Assembly (NCBI RefSeq): GCF_003205235.1
Contig: NZ_QJSM01000021.1
Coordinates: 1 to 64,000, forward strand
Origin: Thermoplasma sp. Kam2015
GTDB lineage: Archaea > Thermoplasmatota > Thermoplasmata > Thermoplasmatales > Thermoplasmataceae
Length of the DNA stretch: 64,000 nt
Direction: 5' to 3'
In this document: in pieces, positions 9,081-22,541 of the stretch
Layout of the letters: each line of letters begins with the position of its first letter
Position numbering within the stretch: the stretch's first letter is position 1
The notes under the pieces: model-generated
Databases searched by the model: none
The model's input: the letters and a program-made list of their open reading frames with translations, nothing else
Told to the model about the DNA's origin: nothing
Program-made: the position numbers and the translations under genes

Positions 9081-12000
9081 ATTCTGAAAATACCAAATCC
9101 TGAAGGAAGAACGCTGAACAGATCACAGAAAGCAGGAATTGCCCTGATATTCGTTTCAGTCATGATCCTGTCCGGTGTCGGGATAGCGGGATTCCAGGCG
9201 CTGAGCCACTGGGACCCCTCTAAAGGACATAATAACCGTCCCATCATCGGAATCAAGCCTGCTGACGTCTCCGCATCAAGTGGCGGTACAACAACTGTAT
9301 ATTATGGTCAGACTGTCTCATTTTCAACAGTATCCGGGAGATCCAGTTCCGCCACAAACGAGAATAAACAGACGTCCACCTCCGGATACCCGCCTCCTGA
9401 TTATCCACCCTACCCGAGCACACCAGGCTGGACTCTGGATGTCGGAGGTTCGTCAGTCGAATCAGGGACAGCATCAGCCAGCGGAGTCTCTTATGATCAG
9501 TGGTATACACAGAGTGAGCAGTACCTTATTGGAGGCTACGTTTACACTACTTACTCCTATTCGGAGACCTCATGGTCCGGTGCATACATATCTGGGGTCA
9601 CATACACGATTCCAAACTCAGGTGGATCATCAGGAGGAACCGATGAATCATGGTCTCTTTCCACCGATGGTGCATCCGCTTCCGGCACTCTTGATGTTTA
9701 CACACCCTATGCCACTATATCAGCAAGCACAACCACACCAGATGCCGGGCAGTCTGTATCATTCTCCTCAAGCCTGCCATCAGGCGTATCCTACTCATAC
9801 CAGTGGTACCTTAACGGCAATGCAGTCAGTGGGGCAACCGGTTCATCATACTCATTCACGCCTTCCTCTCCCGGATCATATTCTGTGTACCTTGAGGCAA
9901 CCGAGAACGGGTACAGTTTTTCATCAAACACAGTCACAATATCGGCAAACAGTGACCCATCCATATCCATCTCATCAAACAGGAACCCATCTGATGCCGG
10001 TCAGACTGTGGACTTCAGCACCTCTGTATCCGGAGGGACCGGATCGTACACAACTTACGGCTATGTCCTCTATGACGGCACATCCACATCGGATTCCCAG
10101 CTGGCATCCGGATCATCATCGTCATTCTCCTATACGTTCAGTTCTGCAGGGCAGTATCTCCTGCACTACTCCGTGACTGATTCCAACGGATATACTGCTT
10201 CGACCTCAATTACGCAGACAGTCAATACAGATCCCTCAGTTAGCATAGCCTCATCGCAGAACCCCACAGATTCAGGGAGGACAGTTGAGTTCACATCATC
10301 GGTGTCCGGAGGCACCCCGGGATACAGCTATTCCTGGTCAGTTGACGGAAATTCTTACAACACCAAGGATATCAATGTGTCATTCAGCTCATCCGGTTCA
10401 TACGGTGTCGACCTCACAGTGACTGATTCAGCAGGCTATTCCGTCTCACAGTCCATCACTGAAACGGTCAACTCTGATCCGACTGTATCTGCATCCTCAA
10501 ATGTCAGCAGTGCCGATGTTGGCTATCCAATAGAATTCTCCTCAACACCATCCGGCGGAACCGGATCATACAGCTACTCCTGGACACTCAACGGGCAGCA
10601 GGTGTCAACATCCCAGGACTTCTCATATTCCTTTGACCAGTCAGGATGATACACCCTCACAGTGACAATAACGGATTCAGTGGGAGTGCAGAGCAGCGCA
10701 TCTGTCACTGTGAACATCAATCCAAATCCCGCAGTCTCCATAAGCAGCAGCCAGAATCCAACCGATGTGGGGAATTCCGTGGCCTTTTCCTCATCTGAAT
10801 CCGGAGGCACGGGAACGGACACATATGTGTGGTACATCAACGGGGTTCAGGAATCAACGGCGTCATCATTCTCCTATTCATTCTCTTCATCAGGCATTTA
10901 TTATGTGAATGTCACTGTAACTGATTCCGATGGCCACACTGCACAATATTCCCTGAAGGAAACGGTCAACCCTGATCCTTCAGTTGTGATCCATGTTGTC
11001 CATAACCCCACCGATGCCGGCATATGGGCGAACTTCACCGCATCCATATCAGGTGGTACTCCAGAATACAGCTATTCCTGGACCATAAACGGTGAGACGC
11101 TCACATCAGCATATGTCAACTACACATTCACCTCACCAGGAACCTTCCCTGTATCCCTCACAGTTACGGATGGCAATGGGAATACCGCCTCCGCATCCGT
11201 GAATGAGGTGGTGAATCCTGATCCTTCAGTCTTAATAGATGCACAGTACACCACTGTTGATCAGGGCATCAACGACACATTCTATGCCGACATTTCAGGG
11301 GGCACATCCCCCTTCAATTACACCTGGTCAATGGGAAGCAGCATCATGAATTACTCCCAGCAGTTCCACATGAACTTCTCTGCCACTGGATCATATACGA
11401 TCAATCTGACCATTATTGATTCCCTGGGAGAGAAATCCACTGCATCATTCAAGGTAACTGTCATTGAGAAGCCCTCTGCCCTAATTGAGGGATCAAACAT
11501 AACGGATGTTTCCACAACTACCTACTGGGAAGGTTATGGATCATACGGGACAGCGCCATACAACTACTACTGGTTCATCAACGGGGTCAATACATCCACA
11601 GGCCTCTATCTTGAGTATTCCTTCCCATCTTCCGGGAAATACAATATCTCACTTCTCATAGACGACAGCCAGGGATCCAAGGCATATGCATACCTTGATG
11701 TCCAGGTTGAACCAAAACCATCGGTGAAGGCATCAGAATCCATTTCATCTACCGATGTTGGCATCCCAGTTAGATTCACATCATCATTGACGGGCGGAAC
11801 ACCTTTCTTCAACTACACATGGTCAGTCTCCGGAATCGGCATCGTCTGGTATCAGGCCAGTCTCACATACATATTCTCCCAGCCAGGATCGTATAACGTT
11901 TCCCTTTCGGTCACGGACGGATCAGGGAACAGGGCATCCTCATCTATCGGGATAAGAATCAATCCGCTTCCTCATGCCAGGATACTCCCGGAATACAGCA

Positions 12001-13251
12001 ACATCGATCCCAATGTTACCGATACATTCAACTCCAACATAACGGGAGGCACTCCCGGATTCCATTACAAATGGTACATCAACGGTACCGTGGAGGGGAA
12101 TGGCAGCTCCATATCATGGTCATTCAGCACTGCCGGAATATATCCCGTAAGGCTTGTGGTGACGGATTCCCAGGGCCAGACGGACTCATATTCCACTGAT
12201 ATAACTGTGGCCTCATATCCCAAGGCATCCATCATTTCATCATCATCCGATCTGGATGCAAACGTCAGCGACCAGTTCAGGGCATCAGGCTTCGGTGGCA
12301 TCGGCCCGTACGGGTATGAGTGGATCATTGCAGGACATGAATTCAGCAACTCCACAGTCAGCTATGCATTCCGGTCTCCAGGCAATTACTCAGTGCAGCT
12401 GATCATATCGGATTCATTCGGCAAGGATGCCGCCACATCAATAACGGTTGATGTGCATCCCGATCCCACAATATCCGTATTCTGGAAAGGAAAACCTGTT
12501 GTGTCCATCCCATTCAGCATGAATGCAAATATAACCGGTGGTATCTCCCCATACCAGATATCATGGATATTCCCATCAGGGCAGCATGAGACAGGCGCTG
12601 CCATTTCACATGTCTTTTCATCCTCCGGTCCGGATACATTCGAGGTTCAGGTCACAGACCACGGGGGTTACACAGAAACAAGGAACTTCACTGTGAACGT
12701 TGGCCTGTATGTTGCAATAGCAGCCAATCAGACTTCGGGTCTTGGTCCTCTGTCAGTGCAGTTCTCTTCCAGCGTTCTCGGGGGATCTGATTACGCATAC
12801 AACTGGTCATTTTCACCGAATCACTATTCCCTTGAGGCAAATCCGATCTACACATTCCCTGTTGGAAACTACACAGTTCACTTCTCGGTGACATCAGCAA
12901 ACGGTGCAACCGGCTATGCCAATATCAGCATCCAGAGCCTGCCGCCTCCAGTCCATTTCAATTATTCAACCGGCCTGAACATCACGCAGGCCTTCCACTT
13001 CCAGGCATTTCCAAACTGGGATGCAGCAGGACCATACAACATGTCATGGTCATTCCCCAATGGCCAGACCATCACAGGAATGAACATATCTTACAAATTT
13101 CCGGTCTACAATGAGCTCAATACAGTCATTGCAACCTTCTCTTATGGAAATGGGAAAACGTGGACCCAGTATCTCACGGTGAGGATGATACCAGCAGTGC
13201 GGGGATGCTTGGTGGGCTTTTGCTCATACTTCTCGGCATAGGGGTAATCTG
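9081..13251 (+). pseudogene. giant PKD-repeat surface protein, broken by one stop and one frameshift
   Basis: The frame encodes about 1360 residues. A basic N-terminus and signal or anchor helix (AGIALIFVSVMILSGVGIAG) are followed by a Ser/Thr/Pro/Gly-rich head and then about 14 PKD-type repeats of 80-85 residues. The repeats share a pattern of N-x-D-P-S-V, D-x-G, SGGT, Y-x-W, G-x-Y and V-T-D. The ATG at 9162 lies inside the signal helix, so translation probably starts upstream; only ATT (9081) or ATA are available. A TGA at 10647-10649 sits in repeat 4 where G-S-Y-T is expected (TCA to TGA). The frame-0 end (13241) lacks an anchor. Adding one G to the G-run at 13201-13204 restores a C-terminal membrane helix (GMLGGLLLILLGIGVI) ending at TGA 13251. 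PKD repeats are typical of archaeal S-layer and adhesion proteins. Confidence 0.8.
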
Positions 13252-15044: not shown

Positions 15045-16067
15045 ATGATCGATGTTGTCAGGAAGATCCTCAAAAAACCATGTGAAAACGTGTCTGCTAT
15101 TACAGAAGTGGATCTGTATTCAAAGAAGATAAATTTCCTGGAACATGCAATGCTTCTGGTGCAATCCGCAATATCCCATGAGGATCTCACTGACATTTCC
15201 ATGGACAATCATGTGAGCAAGTCACAGATATCAAAGCTTGATACCAGAAGACCTTACCAGGTCTTCTTAGAATTATTCTACGATCTGATATATCCATACA
15301 TAATGGCGCATAACTATGCTATGTACAGGAGATTCCTCAACATAATAGGCATTGACTCCACATTCATCCGCACAGCAATAAAGGAATCCGGGAAATACAG
15401 GCGACAGAAGACAGAGAGTGGCATAAAGATGCATCATGCTGCCGTAGTTTTTCCATTCACATTACCGATTGAATCACTGGTAACGCCGGCTAACCTGAAT
15501 GATTCACCAGGATTCGATGAAATCATTGGAAGCATTGATCCCGATCTCCTGAAAGGATCGATACTGACGTTCGATCTCGGCTATTATGATCTTGATCGAT
15601 TCATGGATCTCAAGAGCAGGAAAATAAGGTTCGTTACAAGAATAAAGAAGAATGCCAGTTATGAGGTTGTAAAGAAATATGCACATTCCAGGATTGTAAG
15701 GTTCCGCAATGGAGTGATCCTTAGACTGGTGAGCATTTACGTTGATGGAGAGCAGAAAGATTATCTCACAGACATAATGGATCTTCCTGACTTCTACATC
15801 CACTGTATATATTCACAAAGATGGAATATAGAGATATTCTTCCGCACGATGAAATCATATCTCAGGATAGATCATCTCATATCCAGGAATGTAAACGGCA
15901 TCCTGATACAGATATTCTCCGCACTGATAGCATATGTCATTCTGAGAATGATACAGGATATGATCTCCTGCAGAATGGGCATTCCAGACTTGATAAGGAT
16001 GATCAGGCATGGGATCGTTCTGCCTTTCAGGAAATCTGCAAAAGGCGGTTATCCAGTTAATATATAA
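15045..16067 (+). CDS. IS4-family DDE transposase
   Basis: The 340-residue protein shows all three catalytic acidic positions of IS4-type transposases. These are the first Asp in IIGIDSTF (about residue 106), the second Asp in LTFDLGYYD (about 178), and the Glu in YSQRWNIEIFFRTMKSYL (about 266) within the Y-(2)-R-(3)-E-(6)-K signature. Length is typical and the reading frame is intact, so the element may still be active, unlike most mobile remnants nearby. The N-terminal 90 residues are helical, as in the family. Confidence 0.9.
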   Translation: MIDVVRKILKKPCENVSAITEVDLYSKKINFLEHAMLLVQSAISHEDLTDISMDNHVSKSQISKLDTRRPYQVFLELFYDLIYPYIMAHNYAMYRRFLNIIGIDSTFIRTAIKESGKYRRQKTESGIKMHHAAVVFPFTLPIESLVTPANLNDSPGFDEIIGSIDPDLLKGSILTFDLGYYDLDRFMDLKSRKIRFVTRIKKNASYEVVKKYAHSRIVRFRNGVILRLVSIYVDGEQKDYLTDIMDLPDFYIHCIYSQRWNIEIFFRTMKSYLRIDHLISRNVNGILIQIFSALIAYVILRMIQDMISCRMGIPDLIRMIRHGIVLPFRKSAKGGYPVNI

Positions 16068-16451: not shown

Positions 16452-17267
16452 TCATTGTATTGATAAATTAAGCGCCTCAGAAAATGCATTCGTCTCATTT
16501 CGTATAACTTGTATCGAAGAATAATTACTTTCCAGATAGGACGGGGAAAAACCATCTACTAATTGAGGACTAAAATATGGGCCGTTAATCAAGTAAGTTC
16601 CATTTGTTCCAGAGTATATGCATATAGAATTTATGTGTGCAGGGGCACCAATGAAGGCACTTGGTTTTTCATAGCCCAAAATAGGAACTTTTGTCGTGTA
16701 GTCAATCGCAGTTTGGTATATTCCTCCTGACACATCGTTTTGGAGCTCTTGAAGACCTGTTTCGATTAGATTCTTTGCCAAAATTGGAGTTCCAGAAACC
16801 GTTGCATTCATATACTGGTTATAGAGGTAGACTGGGTAAAATTTCACTGTATGTCCGTAAGCACTGAAGGTGAATGGACTAAATATTAGTCCTGGAGTAT
16901 TGGGAAAAACATCATTCGGATCTGACCTGTGGGTCGACACGCTCTTATTCAAATCTGTATATTTGCTTAGCATCCCATAGATGCCCCAAGAATAAGCTGC
17001 ACCTATTGGACAGCCGTACCAGGATATAAGAAAAATCCCATCCTGATAAGAAGAGAACAGATCGGTGTTAGATACTTTGACAAATTTCCCGGATGGTATG
17101 TCTTCAAGAATAATTGGTCCAGGGCTATTTTCTGCACTCTGGTGATAGTAAACGAAATACGACAGCGTGACCGTTACAACCAATGCTGTCAGAACCACTG
17201 AAAGAACTCTCAGCCATATTCTAAAGTGCTTACTTAAAAAATAATTAAAAAATTTTTTTGTTTTCAT
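16452..17267 (-). CDS. DUF929 membrane-anchored thioredoxin-like protein
   Basis: The 271-residue protein has a basic N-terminus and one membrane anchor (about residues 16-42, LRVLSVVLTALVVTVTLSYF), then an extracellular domain with several N-x-S/T sites. The segment ISWYGCPIGAAYSWGIYGML matches the core of DUF929 proteins, whose usual CPxC thioredoxin-like motif is CPIG here, with only the first Cys. Its start lies 12 bases after the stop of the Hint-domain protein, so the two are probably co-transcribed. DUF929 function is not established; a disulfide or thiol role on the cell surface is plausible. Confidence 0.7.
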   Translation of the reverse strand: MKTKKFFNYFLSKHFRIWLRVLSVVLTALVVTVTLSYFVYYHQSAENSPGPIILEDIPSGKFVKVSNTDLFSSYQDGIFLISWYGCPIGAAYSWGIYGMLSKYTDLNKSVSTHRSDPNDVFPNTPGLIFSPFTFSAYGHTVKFYPVYLYNQYMNATVSGTPILAKNLIETGLQELQNDVSGGIYQTAIDYTTKVPILGYEKPSAFIGAPAHINSICIYSGTNGTYLINGPYFSPQLVDGFSPSYLESNYSSIQVIRNETNAFSEALNLSIQ

Positions 17268-17279
17268 TTACAGCTGGAT

Positions 17280-19199
17280 CTAAGCTAGTTTCTTGTCCAA
17301 AAGCACACCGTTCGCTATGTAATCATTGAAAACTGCTGTGTGACCTCCATCTGTGAATTGCCTTGCTGTGACGACATCGTATACAGTGTAGTTTCCATTA
17401 TGCAAGGTTATGCTCGTTACCGGAATCCATGTGTTGTTTGCAGGATCAAAAACACTCATTCCATAGTTCACTTCTCCTAGAACCAACCATTCCGTTGTGC
17501 CATTAGCTAGCTTAACATAGACCGGTTGATCCCCCATCCCTGATATGTATATTTGGTTGTTCAGCTCCAGCACGTTTGAAACATTTGTTTCCGTTACACT
17601 CGAAACGGTTGACTGTATAAGACTACCATTTGAAGTATCATATGACAGGGTCTTCATTCCTGGTCGTAGATCCTGTACCGGGATTTGTGTTCCGTTAGCC
17701 AGAGTGATCTCTGTTCCTTTTAAAACACAGCCTCCGCCGCCTCCACCACCCGATCCTCCTGAACCAGAACTTACCTGATAGGCATATACTTCGACCCCCA
17801 ACATTGGCACACTTCCGGTGTAACCATTGGTCAGGTAATATTGAGAACCTGACAAAATTACATAAGTGTTGATATCGTAATTGGTTGGCGCGTCATATTG
17901 CACCATTCCATTGGATGAGGAAAAACCACTACCAAACTGCAATGTACCGAAAAGGAGTCCCACCACTGAGAGAGCCACTCCAACCGGGGGGGCAATAAAT
18001 GCCAGCAGAATTGCACCCAGACCTATTCCAAAGCTAATCCACGAACTGTCAGTGCTTGTATATTGCTCAACCAGTGCTTGTGAAGAAATCTGGTAATACT
18101 GTGATCCGATGTTACCGATGCCCTGTCCTGGTTGCCCGCTAGTTTCTTGCTGCCAGGTATTTAGGCCTTCTATGTTGCTTATGGAATCCGTTATTCCAAA
18201 TGCCGTACTGCTTTGGATATCACTTGAGGATCCTACGAGTTGCACGTTGACTATTCCTACATCATAGAAATATTCATCCATTGGATAAGCTCCATAACAA
18301 TCTACATACCATAGAGAATAGTTGGCGCCTTCCACTGACGCGTTGATGTAAGCGTAACCTGTGGAACCAGTGCTATAAGAATAGACCATCTCACCTGATT
18401 GGAAACTGTAAACGCTGCCTGAACTGGTCGAATATCCTGATCCGCCGGCATTGTACTGAGCACTTGAAGTGCTTCCAGGATTCAACGCAAATCCCACGTT
18501 GTAATTTAAAGTTGTCGAGGCACTTGCACTAATATAAGCTTCAGCGTTACCGTATATGTAGGCGAATGTCACTGGTATTTGTGTTATTGGTGTATAGTTT
18601 GCATAATCCTGTTCCCAATAAAAGTAAGCTCCATCGGGAATTATCGTTGGCAATGTGGAACTGTCAGTTACCACACTGGCTTGTGCCTGAGCGGCAGGCT
18701 TGCCAGTTGGAATCAGTCTGTGGCGTTTATCAAGCGGCATATGGATGGTAGCTCGGAAAGACTGCCCGTTTGAAATTTGTGCCATCGACATGTTTACAGA
18801 CCCGATTGACAGAAATGTTCCATTTGAATCATGGTAAGTTATCAATAACAACAAGTCAGGATGGCTGGCGGAATTTAACATGGCGCCCTGATATTCCACC
18901 CATTTGTTTACAAGGTTCCTAACTGGTGTTAGGTTCGTGACCGAAGCATATCCTCCTTCGTTTGTGTTAACTACGAATAGGTTTTCGGTCCCATATCCTT
19001 CATCAGGTGGCTTATACATAATTCCCTGCACCGAAGCATTTACTAGGGGAAAACCTTGTCCATCAAATACCTGGACACCTATAGACTGTGCCTGCTTAAA
19101 TGGGCCAACACCCTCCAATGCCATACCAGTAAGGGAAATGGCAAATGCAGATGTAACAACTATTGAGGCAATTATCACACTTTTTGCCTTATCAACCAT
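17280..19199 (-). CDS. secreted protein with C-terminal Hint (hedgehog/intein) domain
   Basis: I chose the ATG at 19199, giving 639 residues. It directly precedes a signal peptide (MVDKAKSVIIASIVVTSAFA) and has a TATA-like AAATATTTG about 26-33 bases upstream, so it is leaderless. The ectodomain is rich in S, T, Y, N and G, with a hydrophobic helix at about residues 385-415. A glycine linker (SGSGGSGGGGGGG) leads to Cys491, the start of a Hint domain of 149 residues. It shows block A (CVLKGTEITL, then PVQDLRPGMKTLSYD) and an F-like block (VYDVVTARQF, then YIANGVLLDKK). The terminal His-Asn of inteins and any C-extein are absent, as in hedgehog. The TxxH of block B appears as GMGDQ, so activity is uncertain. 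Confidence 0.75.
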   Translation of the reverse strand: MVDKAKSVIIASIVVTSAFAISLTGMALEGVGPFKQAQSIGVQVFDGQGFPLVNASVQGIMYKPPDEGYGTENLFVVNTNEGGYASVTNLTPVRNLVNKWVEYQGAMLNSASHPDLLLLITYHDSNGTFLSIGSVNMSMAQISNGQSFRATIHMPLDKRHRLIPTGKPAAQAQASVVTDSSTLPTIIPDGAYFYWEQDYANYTPITQIPVTFAYIYGNAEAYISASASTTLNYNVGFALNPGSTSSAQYNAGGSGYSTSSGSVYSFQSGEMVYSYSTGSTGYAYINASVEGANYSLWYVDCYGAYPMDEYFYDVGIVNVQLVGSSSDIQSSTAFGITDSISNIEGLNTWQQETSGQPGQGIGNIGSQYYQISSQALVEQYTSTDSSWISFGIGLGAILLAFIAPPVGVALSVVGLLFGTLQFGSGFSSSNGMVQYDAPTNYDINTYVILSGSQYYLTNGYTGSVPMLGVEVYAYQVSSGSGGSGGGGGGGCVLKGTEITLANGTQIPVQDLRPGMKTLSYDTSNGSLIQSTVSSVTETNVSNVLELNNQIYISGMGDQPVYVKLANGTTEWLVLGEVNYGMSVFDPANNTWIPVTSITLHNGNYTVYDVVTARQFTDGGHTAVFNDYIANGVLLDKKLA

Positions 19200-19663: not shown

Positions 19664-20603
19664 ATGAAAGATCAGAGACGTCGAGCTGGATTCAATAGGC
19701 CCTACGGCGAAGGACTACGAACAGGGGGTATGGAATGTCCTGGGATCCCTGTCCAGAATCACCAACGTGGACGAGATAATGCTGCACCTCAGGAGATACA
19801 GCGGCACCCTTGGGGATTATTCTGCATTCAACTCGATCCTTATAGCCACACAGAACCCCGATGCGACCATTGTCAGGTCAAGGGATGAATGGAAATATTT
19901 CGGCAGGACCGTTGGTGAGAACGCAAAACCCATCAGCATCCTGTATCCTGTTGGAGTACCCAGAAGGGACAGCCTGGGAAGGGTGAAGAAGTTCATTGAG
20001 GACAGAAAGGCAGAGGGATTGAGCGACGAGGCCATAGATCAGCTTGTCATGGAGAAGTTCAACCTTCAGGGCGGAGGCACTGCATTTGTCTTCTCCTTCG
20101 GCAAAGTATATGACATCTCTTAGACATCGCAGATACCGGGAAAGGAGAAACCTGTCGAGGAGGATGTCAAGGCCACTACCCTGTATAATACTTTGAAAAA
20201 GATTGCTAAAGACCATTATACCGTGGAAGAGGAAACAATAACGAATGGCGCACGTGGATACACAGCCCACTCTGGTGAAGGTCAGAAGATTGTCGTCATG
20301 AAGATACCAGGAGAGGATGTGAATGTTCTTCACACCCTTATACATGAGATGTCACATGCAAGGTTGGAGCATCTTTACAGGAAGGAGCTTCCAAGAGGCC
20401 TTGCAGAGAGTGAAGCTGAGTTGTCCACTTATCTTGTTGGCGCACACTTCGGATTTGACTTCAGGGAAGACTCAGCAGCATATATCAAGGGATGGCTGGA
20501 CAATGCCAGATCACAGGGCAAGGATCTTGGAAAGGAGAACCTGGATCGTGTATTGAACAATGCAAGATGGCTGATTAATGAGATAAATGGGAACTTTACT
20601 TAA
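19664..20603 (+). pseudogene. ArdC-like antirestriction protein with zincin domain, broken
   Basis: The conceptual product has an ArdC-type N-terminal domain (YSAFNSILIATQNPDAT, then WKYFGRTVGENAKPI, then FSFGKVYDIS). A C-terminal ImmA/IrrE-type metallopeptidase domain carries LHTLIHEMSHARLEH, an HExxH zinc site, with a Glu-rich third-ligand region after it. Two lesions are visible. One extra A just after the ATG (19664) shifts the frame; removing it gives MKIRDVELDSIGP. A TAG at 20121-20123 sits where Gln is expected in DIS-Q-T. Downstream the frame is open to TAA at 20601. ArdC proteins shield incoming single-stranded plasmid DNA from restriction, which fits a conjugative or mobile element. 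Confidence 0.75.
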
Positions 20604-21980: not shown

Positions 21981-22541
21981 CTATCCATTAACAAGCATCA
22001 GGTTGTGCAGCAACCCTTTGCAGAATCCTGACGTCTCAATACGATCTTTTCTCTTCTGGAATATCATTTGCCCTGTTGTTTTCTTGTCTGCAGAGAATCC
22101 TGCTTCAGAATTGCTTCTTCTGAAGTATTCCCTCAGATATGCAATGGGATCATTCATGAATCTTCTGATAATATCTCTCCAACGTTTGGGTCCCCTTATC
22201 CTGGAATTCTTCTTTGGAATAATGAATATTCTGGTATTTTCAGAGAAATCATCAAGTATGCTCTGTCCCGAGTAATATCTGTCCAGTCTTATGCTGTCAA
22301 GATCTATTCTCAGCCTCTGTATCATGTCAAGAGATTTCGAGTAAGCATCCTTCTCCGATCTGAGAGAAACGGCATAGCCAATGTACATGCGTGTGTTGAG
22401 ATCCATTAAGGCGAATGAATAGACGAACTGCCCTTTCTTGACAGATTCCCCATGGTTCTCCCTCATTGATCTGTAATGCTTTGTTACTGCGAGCGAATAA
22501 CCGGTTCCGTCACCCACAGCATCACATTTCGAAATCATCAT
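21981..22541 (-). pseudogene. truncated DDE transposase
   Basis: The 186-residue frame contains the catalytic core of an IS5/IS4-like transposase. It shows the first Asp in CDAVGDGTGYSL, the second in IRLDRYYSGQSIL, and the Glu in RRSNSEAGFSADKK. The N-terminal DNA-binding part expected in full-length members is missing and no coding continues upstream of 22541. It is therefore a 5'-truncated copy. It is clearly different from the transposase at 15045. Confidence 0.7.

Follow-up and report, generated by a model that had tools for sequence, protein, structure and literature searches.

A predicted C-terminal Hint domain without the block B histidine in an exported Thermoplasma protein and its archaeal relatives

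The Hint gene and its surroundings

The stretch of DNA analysed here, 64,000 nucleotides in length (‘the window’), carries on its minus strand a gene (positions 17280..19199, with its ATG at 19199) for a 639-residue protein that has recognisable homologues and appears to be exported. The protein begins with a hydrophobic segment (residues 8-26; 19122..19178, minus strand) that, judged by hydropathy, would act as a signal peptide or signal anchor, and continues into an N-terminal part that is poor in charges and rich in Ser, Thr, Asn and Gln. This part contains a further hydrophobic segment (residues 397-415; 17955..18011, minus strand) that is also found in four homologues (L044, L046, L047 and L048); its AlphaFold model reaches a pLDDT of 40, and a search of the PDB with a profile of the N-terminal part returned no match. 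A Ser/Gly linker (SSGSGGSGGGGGGG, residues 477-490; 17730..17771, minus strand) then leads to Gly490 (position -1), after which the last 149 residues (491-639; 17283..17729, minus strand) make up a domain that is assigned to the Hint superfamily by profile and predicted fold. Three of its codons, all on the minus strand, are central to what follows: those of Cys491, residue 1 of the domain (17727..17729), of Gln558, at the position of the ‘block B’ histidine within the motif GMGDQP (17526..17528), and of Asp608, at position F4 of ‘block F’ (17376..17378). Block F itself reads VYD...DYIANGVLLD, and the protein ends in LLDK in place of VHN, with neither a final His-Asn nor a C-extein. Translation of the open reading frame thus agrees in every coordinate with a sequence-only reading of this DNA, which had placed a 149-residue domain at Cys491 after a Gly-rich linker.

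The same reading had pointed to a DUF929 gene with a CPIG cysteine only 12 bases downstream, and this too holds: the neighbouring open reading frame (16452..17267, minus strand) encodes a 271-residue protein with an N-terminal transmembrane segment and a lone thioredoxin-like cysteine, Cys86, which matches PF06053 at an E-value of 3e-54 (184 bits, against a cut-off of 24.6). The CPIG cysteine is kept in 28 of 29 DUF929 homologues. The family has been placed in the thioredoxin clan (PMC3091736), and the secretome of Picrophilus includes it (PMC8345856). The suggestion that the two genes form a system, however, fared poorly as a general rule when other archaea were surveyed, since DUF929 lies beside Hint at 3 of 54 loci (the window, G093 and the broken copy of G044), all with hosts of the window's type, and is present in 90 of 300 genomes of the class, commonly without an adjoining Hint gene. 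DUF929 was therefore rejected as a general partner of Hint, the pairing being local; in the window's lineage it may serve as an accessory protein with a thiol.

A commoner neighbour than DUF929 is an unnamed family of extracytoplasmic proteins of about 240 residues, with a single transmembrane segment and the ending LxGLxxPV, which adjoins about 20 Hint genes (loci L059, L060, L061, L064-L069, L115, L121, L122, L125, L128, L133 and L135). The family evolves rapidly, is present at some places in tandem copies and at others by itself, has no match over cut-off in Pfam, and is represented in the window's own genome by one match (E 1e-3). It was likewise rejected as an obligate partner because it also occurs without Hint; its association is with a single class of host protein and not with Hint itself.

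Several other features of these neighbourhoods were recorded. Within the window, the Hint-DUF929 region lies between a DDE transposase and a second, truncated transposase (15045-16067 and 21981-22541), which suggests a mobile or rearranged stretch, and broken-looking open reading frames at 19767-20603, with a weak match to a zincin (MPTase-PolyVal), may be what is left of an ArdC-like gene from a mobile element. Two adjacent genes at 9162-13241 encode proteins with many PKD repeats that are probably surface proteins. In another genome, a Hint gene (L056:1-9082) stands beside conjugation genes (a TraG/AAA_10 P-loop ATPase and a weak PrgI match).

Identity, conserved residues and spread of the domain

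Searches of Pfam, NCBIfam and the PDB with the domain as a single sequence give matches below threshold: the Pfam Hint profile, whose cut-off is 29.7 bits, gives 11.6-14.3, and over Hint, Vint, Hint_2 and Intein_splicing the scores range from 11.6 to 15.4 bits against curated cut-offs of 27-35.8. Individual relatives also match Intein_splicing, Vint, PT-HINT and Hint_2 weakly. Despite these scores, the resemblance goes beyond chance, because a profile built from 18 homologues (profile A1) matches solved Hint structures at E-values from 6.6e-11 to 1e-8 and the predicted fold does so at 1.9e-9. The best profile match is the BIL domain of C. thermocellum (2lwy, 6.6e-11), in an alignment that sets the Asp-Gln-Pro of the present domain upon the Asp-His-Pro of 2lwy; the profile also matches Tetrahymena BIL2 and inteins, among them that of Pho RadA (1.2e-8). 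An AlphaFold model built from ten homologues (pLDDT 85, pTM 0.81) returns only Hint structures among its top Foldseek matches, with BIL2 the best (1.9e-9, TM 0.77) and the Ssp DnaB intein, 2lwy and hedgehog 1at0 (1e-5) also present. By homologue profile and model, then, the domain is a real Hint domain with a histidine-free site, in the ‘hog-like’ architecture that the sequence-only reading had proposed: a secreted N-terminal part, a Gly, a Cys at position 1 and the Hint domain at the C-terminus.

The domain belongs to a clade of about 50 proteins, mostly from Thermoplasmata, in which it is fused to various exported parts (the ‘Q-type’ Hint clade). Counts were made in 55 aligned sequences, 49 of which cover position 1. 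That position holds Cys in 44, Ser in 4 and Tyr in 1 (46, 2 and 1 in a second alignment), which gives a Cys or Ser nucleophile in 48 of the 49 and bears out an expectation of strong conservation; the Tyr belongs to a single relative, L048. Position -1 is Gly in 37 of the 49 and another residue in 12. In 16 clade proteins Cys1 is the sole cysteine of the open reading frame, so that no disulfide can form within the molecule. F4 is Asp in 45 of 53 sequences, few sequences have a block F histidine, other residues (mostly L-D-x-K) stand in place of the final His-Asn, and the Hint domain ends within five residues of the C-terminus in 43 of 49.

At the block B histidine position, the 55 clade sequences carry Gln in 53 cases, Glu in two and His in none, as against His in all 27 Hint domains of a comparison set drawn from related archaea outside the clade (which also keep the penultimate His in 19 cases and the last Asn in 22, and have C-terminal flanks). 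Members of the clade thus share the change as a derived trait that has become fixed. The altered motif GMGDQ that had been noticed in the window, and taken as a sign that activity may be lost or altered, is confirmed as such, but it is not damage to a single copy: the change is fixed throughout the clade, and the domain has YN00 estimates of dN/dS of 0.14 and 0.19 against its two nearest homologues (L044 and L045, respectively), for which the N-terminal part gives 0.17 and 0.24. With the more distant L046, identity is 74% in the Hint domain and 35% in the host part, and these values together indicate that the domain is under constraint. Decaying loci occur as well: the Hint gene of G044 is split by a transposase, a copy in G077 contains a stop, and G101, which belongs to the same genus, retains just the N-terminal part, as a pseudogene.

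A search of 117 genomes of the order gave Hint matches in 23, and a profile search of the class matched 64 of 400, the weakest being relatives of the ‘HN-type’ discussed below; viral contigs were searched and yielded no relative. Carriers with a name comprise metagenome bins of Thermoplasmata, an archaeon of the Thermoplasmatales and a single cell of the Thermoproteota; for most carriers an acid habitat is presumed. A quick tree, in which several forks lack resolution, divides the clade into three subfamilies and separates it from HN-type Hint domains at an SH-aLRT of 99. The Thermoproteota sequence (L082:3-677) is nested among those of Thermoplasmata, and this placement in the sequence tree suggests that a window-type Hint domain moved between phyla.

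The hosts of the module include S53 pro-kumamolisin peptidases (L051, L129), CarboxypepD_reg proteins (L050, L119) and repeat proteins; internal hydrophobic segments occur in many hosts. Two homologues of the window's N-terminal part (L072 and L073) end where the linker would start and lack Hint altogether, which argues that the domain is an add-on. A single Q-type domain (L123:3014-5800) is followed by a long tail, of 322 residues, in what is either a fusion or an effect of assembly.

Possible processing in acid and its alternatives

Since the classical site has lost its histidines and no Asn step remains, the only reactions left to these domains would be those at the N-terminal junction, namely an N-S shift followed by attack of water or another nucleophile. 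A route of this kind may be outlined as follows. On export into a warm and strongly acid exterior, Cys1 would take over the carbonyl of Gly490 in an N-to-S acyl shift; the resulting thioester would then either be hydrolysed by water, releasing the N-terminal part, or react with a nucleophile at the surface (a lipid, sugar or amine), attaching that part covalently through its Gly-rich end. The outside acid would protonate the leaving amine, making histidine unnecessary as a general acid, Gln would replace His in holding the strained Gly-Cys bond, and the precursor would stay latent as long as it is in the cytoplasm, at near-neutral pH.

Many Thermoplasmatales live in warm surroundings. The Thermoplasmatales are inhabitants of strong acid (PMC10354927), and Macmillan and colleagues observed unaided Gly-Cys N-to-S transfer at 60 C and pH 2-5.8, as well as hydrolysis across Gly-Cys at pH 1 (PMC3277902); it is on this combination of chemistry and habitat that acid-assisted processing is favoured. 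BIL2 provides a precedent for a Hint domain that passes its N-terminal part onto other proteins (PMC8616854). Against such processing stands the Ssp DnaB intein, in which Friedel et al. found that, with Gly at -1, loss of the block B histidine abolished the N-S shift, although the substitution in that test was His to Ala and the conditions were other than those of an acid habitat (PMC6333167); a missing histidine with Gly(-1) is the very combination carried by most clade members. The absence of Gly(-1) from 12 of the 49 hosts, and the single Tyr at position 1, also speak against it. On balance, the chance that the C-terminal Hint domain, once exported to acid, forms a Gly-Cys thioester and then releases or transfers the N-terminal part seems to us about even, and the domain may cut surface proteins or anchor them to lipid, as had been proposed. 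The wider notion of a whole histidine-free, acid-triggered Hint family, with Gln in place of the catalytic His, the environment as its proton source and hedgehog-like anchoring or release of many surface proteins as its outcome, is put forward tentatively, at clearly less than even chances.

The conserved thiol might instead be the whole point of the module, if a non-cleaving Hint domain served as a structural cap at the C-terminus and its lone Cys1, on a flexible Gly linker, as a handle that joins the protein to a further thiol at the surface, in a dimer or in a mixed disulfide with a thioredoxin-like partner (for example DUF929). The loss of all three catalytic histidines and of the Asn, the 16 proteins in which Cys1 is the sole cysteine, and the conserved lone thioredoxin-like cysteine of the window's DUF929 neighbour would all suit such a role. 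Four members, however, carry at position 1 a Ser that can form no disulfide but could undergo an N-O shift, the conserved Gly(-1) and Asp at F4 would be superfluous for a handle, and nearly all other Hint loci are without DUF929; this explanation is accordingly rated as rather unlikely.

That the domain is a decayed intein-like (BIL) domain which has lost its function and is retained only because the gene ends with it is an improbable alternative: lost catalytic residues, the broken copies of G044, G077 and G101 and the Tyr of L048 are what decay would leave behind, but dN/dS lies well below 1, the Hint domain evolves more slowly than its host part, Gln558 is almost invariant (as is Cys1 across the three subfamilies), and the module has been reused on unrelated hosts. 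Slightly less probable still is a system of antagonism comparable to the bacterial polymorphic toxins with HINT domains, in which Hint would free the N-terminal part as a membrane-active effector and an adjacent single-TM protein would confer immunity. The internal hydrophobic segments of many hosts, the fast-evolving 240-residue family at about 20 loci (sometimes in tandem, elsewhere alone), and a patchy distribution with transposases, and with conjugation genes near L056, are compatible with such a system. S53 peptidases and repeat proteins are nevertheless among the hosts, no toxin domain was found, Hint stands at the C-terminus in the clade when in toxin systems the toxin comes after it, and the 240-residue family is nearly missing from the window's genome.

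The block B histidine is regarded as indispensable to the chemistry of Hint domains. A clade that lacks this residue, while keeping its nucleophile under purifying selection, offers a natural experiment on the way in which these domains activate peptide bonds. If acid-assisted processing is true, it would provide wall-less acidophilic archaea with a candidate means of displaying surface proteins covalently or of releasing them, comparable to the processing by hedgehog or archaeosortase, and could lead to a cleavage tag that is switched by acid. The Q-type clade is apparently undescribed so far; in the collection of papers searched, none combines ‘hint domain’ with ‘Thermoplasmat’.

Comparison with known systems

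The Hog domain of hedgehog proteins (1at0, TM 0.66-0.69 with the window's fold) shares with the clade a secreted N-terminal part, a Gly-Cys junction and a Hint domain on the C-terminal side without a C-extein. The clade differs in being archaeal, in the change of its block B His to Gln, in N-terminal parts unrelated to Hedge, and in having no sterol-recognition region (most members end 0-5 residues after Hint); because of that last difference it does not belong to the Hog family proper. BIL domains sit in variable proteins and mostly catalyse cleavage, splicing less. They provide the closest matches both by profile (2lwy) and by fold (Tetrahymena BIL2, 6y75), but both of these have the block B His, which the clade has lost. 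Type A, moreover, requires a C-terminal His-Asn and has a C-terminal flank, neither of which the clade retains, and type B, in whose definition (PMC7765530) the C-terminal motif alone of the intein motifs is absent, does not accommodate it either, since the block B His is gone as well.

Inteins need both exteins, a final His-Asn and a +1 nucleophile, whereas the clade has no C-extein. The Tko CDC21-1 intein does achieve activation without a block B His, for which a Lys compensates (PMC7765530); this and other inteins without that histidine are isolated cases, in contrast to the fixed replacement by Gln in the clade. HN-type Hint domains of other Thermoplasmatota (L136-L138, L221-L239) are of the same profile family, and some follow the same Gly-rich linker, but they keep TxxH and usually His-Asn intact and are situated mid-way along large proteins, frequently as tandem domains; two or three occur per protein in L221, L222, L223, L224, L228 and L239, and several matches fall within one open frame of 2927 residues in G497. 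Read from its sequences, the Q-type clade stands apart by defining features from Hog, intein and BIL alike, while of the features of the Hint superfamily as a whole it has the similarity in fold and profile and the nucleophile at position 1, without the TxxH of block B.
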